48,235 nucleotides of DNA, from contig NZ_JAEULM010000024.1 of the NCBI RefSeq assembly GCF_016793825.1, forward strand, positions 1 through 48,235. The letters run 5' to 3'. Position numbers and translations under genes: made by a program. The stretch is from Sphingopyxis sp. (lineage in GTDB: Bacteria > Pseudomonadota > Alphaproteobacteria > Sphingomonadales > Sphingomonadaceae). This document shows, one piece after another, positions 43,006-46,357 of this stretch (position 1 is its first letter; the number at the start of each line of letters is the position of its first letter). The notes below the pieces were generated by a model. The model had not been told where the DNA came from and ran no database searches. It saw only the letters and a list, made by a program, of their open reading frames with translations.

Positions 43006-44199
<1,194 letters not shown>

Positions 44200-44209
44200 T
44201 ATAGGGCCG

Positions 44210-44304
44210 CGAGCCGCGCGATTCGGACCTGATTCGCGCGGCTCGTAGCTTTAAGAATTTCAATGGCCGGTTCGGCTTCCATGGGGGAGCCGGAGCAGGC
44301 CATT
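44210..44304 (+). terminator. Two long hairpins between tuf and rpsJ
   Basis: Hairpin one: CGAGCCGCGCGA (44210-44221) and TCGCGCGGCTCG (44234-44245), twelve perfect pairs. Hairpin two: AATGGCC/GGCCATT (44262-44268/44298-44304) outside and CGGCTTCC/GGGAGCCG (44273-44280/44285-44292) inside, with an ATGG loop and one G-U pair. A short TAGCTTTA follows the first stem, so partial termination at the str-S10 boundary is possible. Confidence 0.6.
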
Positions 44305-44347
44305 TCGGCTCTTTCGCATCGTTAGACGGGATTCGACTGGAATAGTC

Positions 44348-44659
44348 ATGGAAACGCAGAATATTCGCATTCGCCTGAAGGCCTTTGATCACCGCGTGCT
44401 CGATCAGGCCACCACCGACATCGCCGACACGGCGCGTCGTACCGGAGCGCTTATTCGCGGCCCGATCCCGCTTCCGACGCGTATTGAAAAATTCACCGTG
44501 AACCGCGGCCCGCATGTCGACAAAAAGTCGCGCGAGCAGTTCGAGGTGCGTACCCACAAGCGGCTGCTCGACATCGTGCAGCCCACCCCGCAGACGGTCG
44601 ACGCGCTGATGAAGCTCGACCTCGCCGCGGGCGTGAACGTCGAAATCAAGCTGGCCTAA
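44348..44659 (+). CDS. rpsJ: 30S ribosomal protein S10
   Basis: 103 residues. S10 contacts the 30S head and also binds NusB during antitermination. [20 protein letters not shown] and the [29 protein letters not shown] loop are typical. A 277-base structured spacer follows before rplC, unusual beside the tight spacing of the later genes. Confidence 0.98.
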
Positions 44660-44669
44660 GGGTCAGCAG

Positions 44670-44926
44670 CCCCGCGAAAGCGGGGTCTCTATCGGCAGGA
44701 CGGTTCGCCGCCTGCGTCACGATAGGGTGGATACCGCCGGACCGCTTCCTTGGAAGCATCATGGTCCGGGCTGCGTCCCCCGTCTCGCCGCTTATCCTTC
44801 GGGAAGCGGCACCTCAGCCCGGACGGGGCGATGCATCGAAATTTTGGGCTGGGAGGGTTCCGTAAGAGGCTTGCCTCAACGGGTCCCGCAAGCCGTGCGG
44901 AATGGTCCGCCCGGCCTCTGTTGAGG
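44670..44926 (+). ncRNA. Structured RNA between rpsJ and rplC (candidate regulatory leader)
   Basis: At least five stem-loops in one spacer. A: CCCCGC-GAAA-GCGGGG (44670-44685). B: CTATCG/CGATAG, GCAGG/CCTGC and CGG/CCG around a UUCG loop (44689-44725). C: CCGGACC/GGTCCGG plus GCTTC/GAAGC with a CTTG loop (44737-44769). D: CCCCGTC/GACGGGG outside and GCCGCTT/AAGCGGC inside with a UUCG loop (44778-44828). E: CCTCAAC (44874-44880) pairs with GTTGAGG (44920-44926), covering part of the rplC Shine-Dalgarno GAGGAG (44923-44928). AGAGGC (44865-44870) can instead pair with GCCTCT (44914-44919), so two folds compete. The stable tetraloops show selection on RNA structure. Confidence 0.7.
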
Positions 44927-44936
44927 AGTATGGATC

Positions 44937-45716
44937 ATGCGTACTGGCGTGATCGCGAAGAAAATGGGGATGACCCGCCTGTTTCAGGACGACGGCCGCC
45001 ATGTGCCCGTCACTGTCCTGAGCCTCGAAGGCTGCCAGGTCATTTCCGTGCGCGAACAAGAACGTGACGGCTATGTCGCCGTCCAGCTCGGTGCCGGCTC
45101 GGCAAAGGCGAAGAATGTCGCCAAGCCCCAGCGCGGCGCTTTTGGCAAGGCCGAAGTCGAGCCCAAGGCGAAGGTCGTCGAATTCCGCGTCGCCGACGAC
45201 GCGACGCTCGACGTCGGCGCCGAACTGTCGGCCGACCATTTCGTCGCCGGCCAGATCGTCGACATCCAGGGCGTCACGCAGGGCAAGGGTTTTGCCGGTG
45301 CGATGAAGCGCTGGGGTTTCGGGGGCATGCGCGCCACGCACGGCGTGTCGATCAGCCACCGTGCCCATGGTTCGACGGGTAACCGCCAGGATCCGGGCCG
45401 CGTCTTCAAGAACAAGAAGATGGCCGGCCATATGGGCGCGCGCAACCGCACCCAGCAGAATCTCGAAATCGTCCGCACCGACGTCGAGCGCGGCCTTCTC
45501 TTCGTCAAGGGCTCGGTCCCTGGCTCGAAGGGCGGCTGGCTGATGGTCCGCGATGCGGTCAAGCTGCCGCGCCACCCCGAGGCCCCCTATCCGGCGGGCA
45601 TCAAGAGCGCGGCCAACAGCAACCAGGAAGCCCCGGCAGACGCGCCGGTCGAAACGCCGGTCGAAGAGACCGTCGTGACCGACACCGCGACCACCGACGG
45701 CGCGCAGGAGTCCTGA
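44937..45716 (+). CDS. rplC: 50S ribosomal protein L3
   Basis: 259 residues, about 45 more than E. coli L3 because of a C-terminal acidic Ala/Pro/Glu/Thr-rich tail ([20 protein letters not shown]). The core with [30 protein letters not shown] and [34 protein letters not shown] is intact, including the peptidyl-transferase-centre loop. The ATG is 8 bases from GAGGAG, which can pair with upstream RNA. Confidence 0.97.
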
Positions 45717-45718
45717 TC

Positions 45719-46357
45719 ATGAAGGTCAAGGTTCAGACCCTAGAAACCGCGGGCTCCGGCAAGGCCGGCACCGATATCGACCTCAGCGACGACGTCTTCG
45801 GCGTCGAAGCGCGCGCCGACATCCTGCACCGCGTCGTGTCGTGGCAGCTCGAAAAGCGCCGCGGTCCGGCTCGCGCCGCCCGCGAACGCAGCGACGTCGC
45901 CCGCACGGGCAAGAAGTTCGGTCGCCAGAAGGGCGGCGGTACCGCGCGTCACGGCGATCGCAGGGCGCCGATCTTCATCGGCGGCGGCAAGGCGCACGGC
46001 CCCCGGGCCCGCACCTTCGGCCACTCGCTGAACAAGAAGATCCGCGCGCTCGGCCTGAAGATGGCGCTCAGCGACAAGGCCAAGGGCGGCAAGATCGTCG
46101 TCCTCGACACGCTCGAGCTCAAGGATGCCAAGACCAAGGCGCTCGCCGGCAAGCTCGGCAAGCTCGAACTCGGCAACCGCGCCCTCTTCATCGACGGCGA
46201 TGCGGTCCATGAAAGCTTCGCCATGGCGTCGGCCAACCTGATCGGTATCGACTCGATGCCGGCGGCGGGTGCCAACGTCTATGACATCATCCGTGCCGAC
46301 ACGCTGGTCCTGACCCGCGCGGCGGTCGAAAAGCTGGAGGCCCGTTTCAATGGCTAA
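45719..46357 (+). CDS. rplD: 50S ribosomal protein L4
   Basis: 212 residues, starts two bases after rplC. The extended loop that reaches the exit tunnel ([40 protein letters not shown]) is present. In E. coli L4 represses the S10 operon through the leader RNA, so it is a natural candidate ligand for the rpsJ-rplC leader. It overlaps rplW by eight bases. Confidence 0.97.

Follow-up and report, generated by a model that had tools for sequence, protein, structure and literature searches.

The rpsJ–rplC spacer and its surroundings

The window, i.e. the whole stretch of 48,235 nt that was analysed, is part of a Sphingopyxis contig and carries the gene order tuf, rpsJ, a spacer of 277 nt, rplC and an open reading frame at 45719–46357 which, by gene order, we take to be rplD (L4); the name rpsJ is likewise our assignment. 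The stop codon of rpsJ occupies 44657–44659 and the ATG of rplC begins at 44937. Consequently, the spacer spans positions 44660–44936. The genes and the features found in and around the spacer are listed in Table 1.

Table 1. Positions in the window of the genes and of the structural features between them
Feature	Position	Strand	Support
rpsJ (S10, also NusE), gene preceding the element	44348–44659	+	ORF; protein homologue in 70/80 genomes of the genus and 114/119 of the family
Hairpin 1, GAAA loop at 44676–44679, variable	44670–44685	+	genus alignment: double changes in 4/7 pairs
Hairpin 2, outer stem CUAUCG...CGAUAG enclosing a UUCG hairpin	44689–44725	+	outer stem 93% paired; inner stem with double changes in 6/8 pairs
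Family core of 126 nt, a double pseudoknot with helices P1–P4, PK1 and PK2	44726–44851	+	covariance model R1, 84.7 bits, E 1.7e-15
Box UGGAUACC; contains GGA, P1 5' strand (partner UCC, 44776–44778)	44728–44735	+	15 compensatory events vs null mean 0.9, max 4
P2 hairpin, cap CUUG in the window (44749–44752)	44737–44769	+	double changes in 3/4 pairs; contains the top pair of both all-pairs runs
PK2, 5' strand UGCG (3' strand UGCA, 44832–44835)	44772–44775	+	30 compensatory events vs null mean 4.0, max 9
UCCC; partner GGA (P1) or, alternatively, CC 44778–44779 with GG 44827–44828 (P3 extension)	44776–44779	+	both feasible in 197/201
P3, 5' strand CCGUC (3' strand GACGG, 44822–44826)	44780–44784	+	12 compensatory events vs null mean 2.7, max 7
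P4 hairpin within P3, UUCG cap, sequence variable	44787–44810	+	double changes in 2/5 and 2/3 pairs
PK1, 5' strand AGCCC (3' strand GGGCU, 44846–44850)	44816–44820	+	10 compensatory events vs null mean 1.8, max 6
Post-core hairpin at the terminator-like site of other lineages; without U-run	44851–44887	+	genus: double changes in 4/6 outer and 5/5 inner pairs
rplC-proximal hairpin; hairpins of this kind, judged by eye, also in most spacers of the family without a core	44892–44915	+	
CCUCU, Shine–Dalgarno complement (CCUC 44915–44918 with GAGG 44923–44926)	44915–44919	+	CCTCT in the last 45 nt of 198/201 core-bearing spacers
Shine–Dalgarno sequence of rplC, AGGAG	44924–44928	+	sequence
GAUCAUGC/GCGUGAUC hairpin containing the rplC start codon	44933–44954	+	pattern in 142/201
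rplC (L3), first gene 3' of the element	44937–45716	+	ORF

An earlier note on this DNA had described the spacer as strongly structured. This was borne out by the folding of positions 44640–44960, for which −161.8 kcal/mol was calculated compared with −136.1 kcal/mol (sd 5.7) for shuffled sequences (z = −4.5; 0 of 100 shuffles as low). The tetraloops that had been named are recognizable by eye, namely GAAA at 44676–44679, two UUCG and CUUG at 44749–44752. The same note had also proposed two competing pairings with the ribosome-binding site. Both exist in the window (CCTCAAC 44874–44880 with GTTGAGG 44920–44926, and AGAGGC 44865–44870 with GCCTCT 44914–44919), but they are not conserved: among 66 distinct sequences of the genus the first was found in two and the second in three.

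The note had not recognised the spacer as a described family, and the database agrees insofar as the whole window gave no match to Rfam 15 at the gathering cut-off. When positions 44600–45000 were compared with Rfam at a permissive E of up to 10, the best match was a chance match with E 2 and no ribosomal leader was among the matches. In 12 relatives a single sub-threshold overlap with the core was obtained (SorY in locus L249, 24.6 bits with a cut-off of 111, E 0.79).

Several observations were made in the surroundings of the spacer. The same assembly contains a second rpsJ–spacer–rplC arrangement at the edge of contig 33 (113000–114521, locus L197) with 85% identical DNA, which is most easily explained by a second, contaminating relative (the listed contamination is 2.24%). 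Just upstream of rpsJ (44300–44347) the sequence GGCTCTTTCGC is conserved. It occurs exactly in 124 of the 201 distinct upstream stretches of the family and, in the form [GC]CTCTTTC, in 186 of them, and at none of seven loci of other families; possibly it is a second leader or a promoter element. A terminator-like inverted repeat, GAGCCGCGCGA...TCGCGCGGCTC followed by GTAGCTTT, was seen by eye after tuf at 44211–44252. Similar stems are present in many of 20 relatives viewed; a consensus scan did not report the repeat of the window. A consensus scan of 43500–45600 for promoters yielded none, and the consensus may not fit sphingomonad promoters. A word search of the main text of a paper on transcription start sites in Zymomonas (PMC7566282) did not find rpsJ or rplC.

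A covarying double pseudoknot

The earlier note had described an array of stem-loops. The key and most conserved part of the spacer is, however, a core of 126 nt which the note had missed. The comparison is based on 249 loci at which rpsJ is followed by rplC on the same strand, of which 242 belong to the own family and seven to further families within the order. The 242 family spacers comprise 215 distinct sequences; without 13 off-pattern spacers and one misparsed spacer (L233) 201 rows remain, which were used for the tree, tail, strand-exchange and terminator counts. For counts within the genus, 66 of 70 distinct sequences were used, the divergent L022, L023, L195, and L196 being left out. 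Among the 13 off-pattern spacers the core is found in eight by the model and in L125 by eye; it is absent in L138 (by eye), L201, L204, and L212.

Alignments of diverse spacers revealed conserved blocks in a fixed order: GGGAUACC, the P2 hairpin, UGCG, UCCC, CCGUC, the P4 hairpin, AGCCC, GGACGGGGC, approximately YGCAUCA, a short A/U-rich loop and GGGCU. Four helices are formed between these blocks: P1 (GGGA/UCCC), P3 (CCGUC/GACGG), PK2 (UGCG/YGCA), and PK1 (AGCCC/GGGCU). Since PK1 crosses P3 and PK2 crosses P1, the fold is a double pseudoknot. The fourth pair of P1, 44728 with 44779, is U-C in the window. Standard folding draws a single long stem through 44772–44835 instead of the pseudoknots and thereby hides the double pseudoknot. 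The core alone folds moderately better than shuffled sequences (z = −2.0, 5 of 200 shuffles as low), a modest score which we ascribe to a calculation that is blind to pseudoknots. The UACC sequence is identical in all 201 rows; this is partly by construction, as is letter conservation in general, because the pattern used for collecting demanded TACC and tolerated few changes elsewhere.

In a structure-blind alignment of 20 sequences (A3), chosen for diversity and for one shared linker length with the other linker type left out, 93.6% of the cells in P1, P2, P3, PK1, and PK2 are paired compared with at most 53% in slid controls, a comparison that favours the structure, which had been derived from these very sequences. 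The alignment contains 31 double-change cells compared with 9.3 in shuffles, and none of 500 shuffles was as high. Changes on both sides occur in 11 of the 22 pairs.

The strongest numbers came from the 201 sequences placed on a tree of rpsJ and rplC DNA. In P1, P3, PK1, and PK2 together 67 compensatory double events were counted, whereas 100 simulations, in which the column changes were re-placed on the tree, gave a mean of 9.4 and a maximum of 17. Typical swaps convert GGGA/UCCC of P1 to GAGA/UCUC or GGAA/UUCC. This test followed an all-pairs test and its four helices were preset from the alignments; P2 was omitted, its 3' side being misregistered. In the all-pairs test, an R-scape-like procedure of our own whose null was tree-based and pooled, only one P2 pair per run reached E ≤0.05, and the best P1 pair had an E of 0.73. 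Of the top 10 pairs in the run on 201 sequences, four belong to the model (three in P2, one in P1) and six lie outside. Judged by the percentage of paired cells, P1 and PK1 are inside the null range, P3 equals the null maximum and only PK2 is above the null. It is the double events that carry the evidence. Pair failures are frequent for the outermost pair of P1 (74/201), the outermost pair of PK2 (43/198), and the last pair of PK1 (26/201), where we suspect a misaligned variant type. Covariation across relatives was the check that the earlier note had suggested, with a lack of compensatory changes speaking against a regulatory RNA; such changes are present.

The UCCC strand deserves separate mention. 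Over the 201 rows its partners in P1 co-vary with it, whereas the alternative pairing that extends P3 keeps G and tolerates G-U, without changes on both sides. Either a switch or a base triple would account for such a pattern.

Ribosomal-protein leaders commonly, though not necessarily, resemble the rRNA site. A suspected likeness of the core to H89–H91 of the E. coli 23S rRNA was followed up at the level of sequence and discarded: when four cores were aligned to the 23S rRNA of their own genus, 26 to 148 of 300 shuffles aligned at least as well. Hairpins 1 and 2 in front of the core (44670–44725) vary between subgroups of the genus, other stems standing in place of hairpin 2 in part of it, and they were not seen in those spacers of other genera that were read by eye.

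Distribution of the core and the region in front of rplC

The seven loci from other families of the order have just 4–11 nt between rpsJ and rplC. In the own genus the spacer mostly measures 275–323 nt, with four small-genome or divergent loci at 203–253 nt; at the other family loci it is mostly 150–390 nt long, with four at 50–134 nt. The covariance model R1 was built on P2, PK2, and P3 with 20 training rows, the sequence of the window (L001) among them. In the window the core is the sole match at E up to 10. Genome-wide searches were made with strict filters, the match-free genomes being listed in part; for the order, R1 had matches in 60 of the 147 genomes, and for the class, in 4 of 289. 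All these matches are in the own family, with a single place per genome in the order search except for the own assembly (two contigs); among the match-free genomes listed are four of the family.

R1 was also run on 96 family loci outside the genus and matched 80, 11 of them training rows, with an E of no more than 0.01, a proportion that is not a rate because L268–L283 had been picked for an absent match or a divergent S10. The 16 misses are L201, L204, L212, L268–L271, and L275–L283. Where coordinates of both were available, the match lies immediately 3' of rpsJ on the same strand in 30 of 30 genomes (compared by hand). The loci that were brought in by the model have rpsJ followed by rplC in 14 of 14 cases, the genomes being partly shared with these 30. 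The suggestion of a lineage-specific RNA one gene inside the S10 operon is therefore supported, as the RNA covaries and all matches are within the family.

Downstream of the core the lineages differ. A hairpin resembling an intrinsic terminator follows PK1 in 34 of 201 spacers, whereas 20 shuffles of the tails gave a mean of 12.7 and a maximum of 18, so that about 13 of the 201 would be expected to be hits by chance. Among the 34 spacers are one from Blastomonas and those of named loci of Sphingobium and Sphingomonas. Their first U-run begins 10–34 nt past PK1 and ends 46–68 nt before the ATG of rplC; the best sigma-70-like match in between has 4–6 mismatches out of 12. In 24 of the 34 spacers a common tail consists of the U-run and CGUUGG. 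This CGTTGG after the terminator U-run was noticed in several genera, e.g. at L107, L235, and L073. Since a terminator that always acted at this place would be expected to cut off the supply of essential proteins, it is probably conditional. Together with the fixed position of the core, the terminator-like hairpins of some lineages are consistent with regulation in cis.

In the window no terminator was found 3' of the core. The covarying hairpin at this site lacks a U-run, and for that reason control in the Sphingopyxis window is more likely exerted at the ribosome-binding site. There the CCTCT sequence is nearly constant among core-bearing spacers, being absent from the last 45 nt before rplC only in L081, L132, and L141. 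The 17 coreless family spacers (L138 and the 16 loci missed by R1) all contain GCCTCTG when it is sought in a wider stretch, and most have, by eye, a hairpin on its 5' side. In two of them, L276 and L277, the hairpin and GGCCTCTG are present in tandem copies. GGCCTCTG is found in all 66 distinct sequences of the genus. As a genome-wide element it was rejected: its counts were under those of the reversed control in three of five genomes and over them in the other two (G119 and G115). In the own genome GGCCTCTGT followed by a Shine–Dalgarno sequence and ATG occurs solely at the two rpsJ–rplC loci. Pairing of CCUCU with the Shine–Dalgarno sequence is possible, and both sequences hardly vary. The pairing of the start-codon hairpin is invariant across the genus, which gives no covariation evidence.

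Possible function of the element

We observed a covarying fold at a fixed position, a family-limited distribution and a variable downstream part. With a probability of roughly 60% we propose that the element represents a new family of cis-acting ribosomal-protein leaders situated inside the S10 operon of the Sphingomonadaceae, between rpsJ and rplC, which would sense L4 or L3 and act by attenuation or by occlusion of the ribosome-binding site. This reading is suggested by the combination of a conserved sensor and a variable output in a fixed place before ribosomal protein genes of one lineage. The sensor would be the core, in which P1 encloses P2, P3 encloses P4, and PK2 and PK1 tie both together. 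An excess of a ribosomal protein encoded in the distal operon, most likely L4 and next L3, would bind and stabilize one fold, and the bound fold would presumably lower the expression of rplC and the genes downstream. In some lineages the terminator right after PK1 would halt transcription, whereas Sphingopyxis and others would restrict initiation by means of the rplC-proximal hairpin, the CCUCU complement of the Shine–Dalgarno sequence and the start-codon hairpin. The UCCC strand, pairing either with the 5' GGA or as an extension of P3, may serve as a strand-exchange switch. We know of no bacterial L3 autoregulator; L3 is encoded by the first gene here. L4 is established as controlling the E. 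coli S10 operon, by attenuation and at the level of translation (PMC10931766).

A bolder version, which we regard as speculative, is that the exchange of UCCC between P1 and an extended P3 within the double pseudoknot constitutes a new class of switching RNA which senses L3 or a growth-linked small molecule and in which the same core leads to a terminator in some genera and to ribosome-binding site control in others.

Four other explanations were considered. First, the spacer could be an element of RNA processing or stability, at which RNases cut or protect the fold so that the mRNA levels of rpsJ and of the distal S10 genes differ without any ligand. Stable stems between cistrons, the retention of GCCUCUG, usually with its preceding hairpin, in spacers without a core, and the terminator-like repeat that is seen by eye 3' of tuf in the window (44211–44252) would all suit such an element. 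A processing site would, however, not need two pseudoknots that are maintained by compensatory change, nor does it account for terminator-like hairpins right after the core in some lineages; we consider it unlikely. Second, the core could be a riboswitch whose ligand, instead of a ribosomal protein, is a small molecule or an ion linked to growth rate. Riboswitches combine compact pseudoknots with variable downstream parts, and the core, a compact double pseudoknot with differing downstream parts, shows no likeness in sequence to 23S rRNA. The idea nevertheless appears quite improbable to us, as the genes downstream encode ribosomal proteins and no candidate ligand is at hand; motifs in such places are usually interpreted as ribosomal-protein leaders (PMC7247131).

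Third, the device could act on translation only, the CCUCU/Shine–Dalgarno pairing and the start-codon hairpin fixing the rate of initiation or coupling rplC to rpsJ, and the core being a mere spacer. The near-constant presence of CCTCT, in 198/201 core-bearing and 17/17 coreless family spacers, is what one would expect in this case, but the core would then not be maintained by 67 compensatory changes, and we give this explanation very little weight. Finally, a functionless repeat- or palindrome-rich spacer can hardly be reconciled with a core that has a single site per genome throughout the family and shows compensatory changes: for 44726–44936 this is contradicted, while for 44670–44725, where hairpins 1 and 2 vary from one subgroup of the genus to another and were not noticed in those spacers of other genera that were read, it could hold, some double changes even in these hairpins speaking against it.

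Much is known about the control of ribosomal proteins in E. coli and Bacillus and less in alphaproteobacteria; the S7 and S8 sites of E. coli have simpler folds. The ribosomal-protein leader that we propose shares with the S7 and S8 sites of the E. coli str and spc operons its location between ribosomal protein genes of one operon, the operons and proteins being different (PMC2704228). Like the E. coli S10 leader that responds to L4, it is proposed to control S10-operon genes by attenuation or at translation (PMC10931766); that leader sits 5' of rpsJ, whereas the sphingomonad element is located 3' of rpsJ. An L2 leader candidate of alphaproteobacteria (Eckert and Weinberg 2020, PMC7247131) likewise concerns genes of the S10 cluster in this class, but it precedes rplB and the sphingomonad element precedes rplC. 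In the same survey an L4 leader candidate of the Archaeoglobi lies before rplC and would regulate rplC, rplD, rplW, and rplB. It is archaeal (PMC7247131). Among 30 ribosomal leader candidates in a further study, the rpsJ motif of Clostridioides difficile also precedes a gene of the S10 operon, but it is located in the 5' UTR of rpsJ and is confined to three genera of the Peptostreptococcaceae (PMC11109978).

In the parts of the literature on ribosomal leaders and structured RNAs that were covered (PMC7247131, PMC2704228, PMC11109978, PMC8632094, PMC6429828) we found no mention of the rpsJ–rplC element of sphingomonads; it is possible that supplementary lists contain it as a nameless candidate. 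As far as could be seen from these parts, the element resembles a ribosomal-protein leader and is not among the known candidates at rplB (alphaproteobacteria), rplC (Archaeoglobi), or rpsJ (clostridia).

The compact double pseudoknot is suited to structural work. Lineages that share the core but differ in its presumed output lend themselves to comparison, and two or three proteins encoded in this operon would be the first to try in binding work. The order in which the element was assembled may be read from the parts that different members of the family have, the part near the ribosome-binding site being present in core-bearing and coreless members, the core in most and terminator-like hairpins in some; the origin of a regulatory RNA therefore becomes testable within one family. 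If the proposal is correct, an RNA switch would govern the distal S10 operon in much of the family, including Sphingomonas, Novosphingobium, Sphingobium, and Sphingopyxis.
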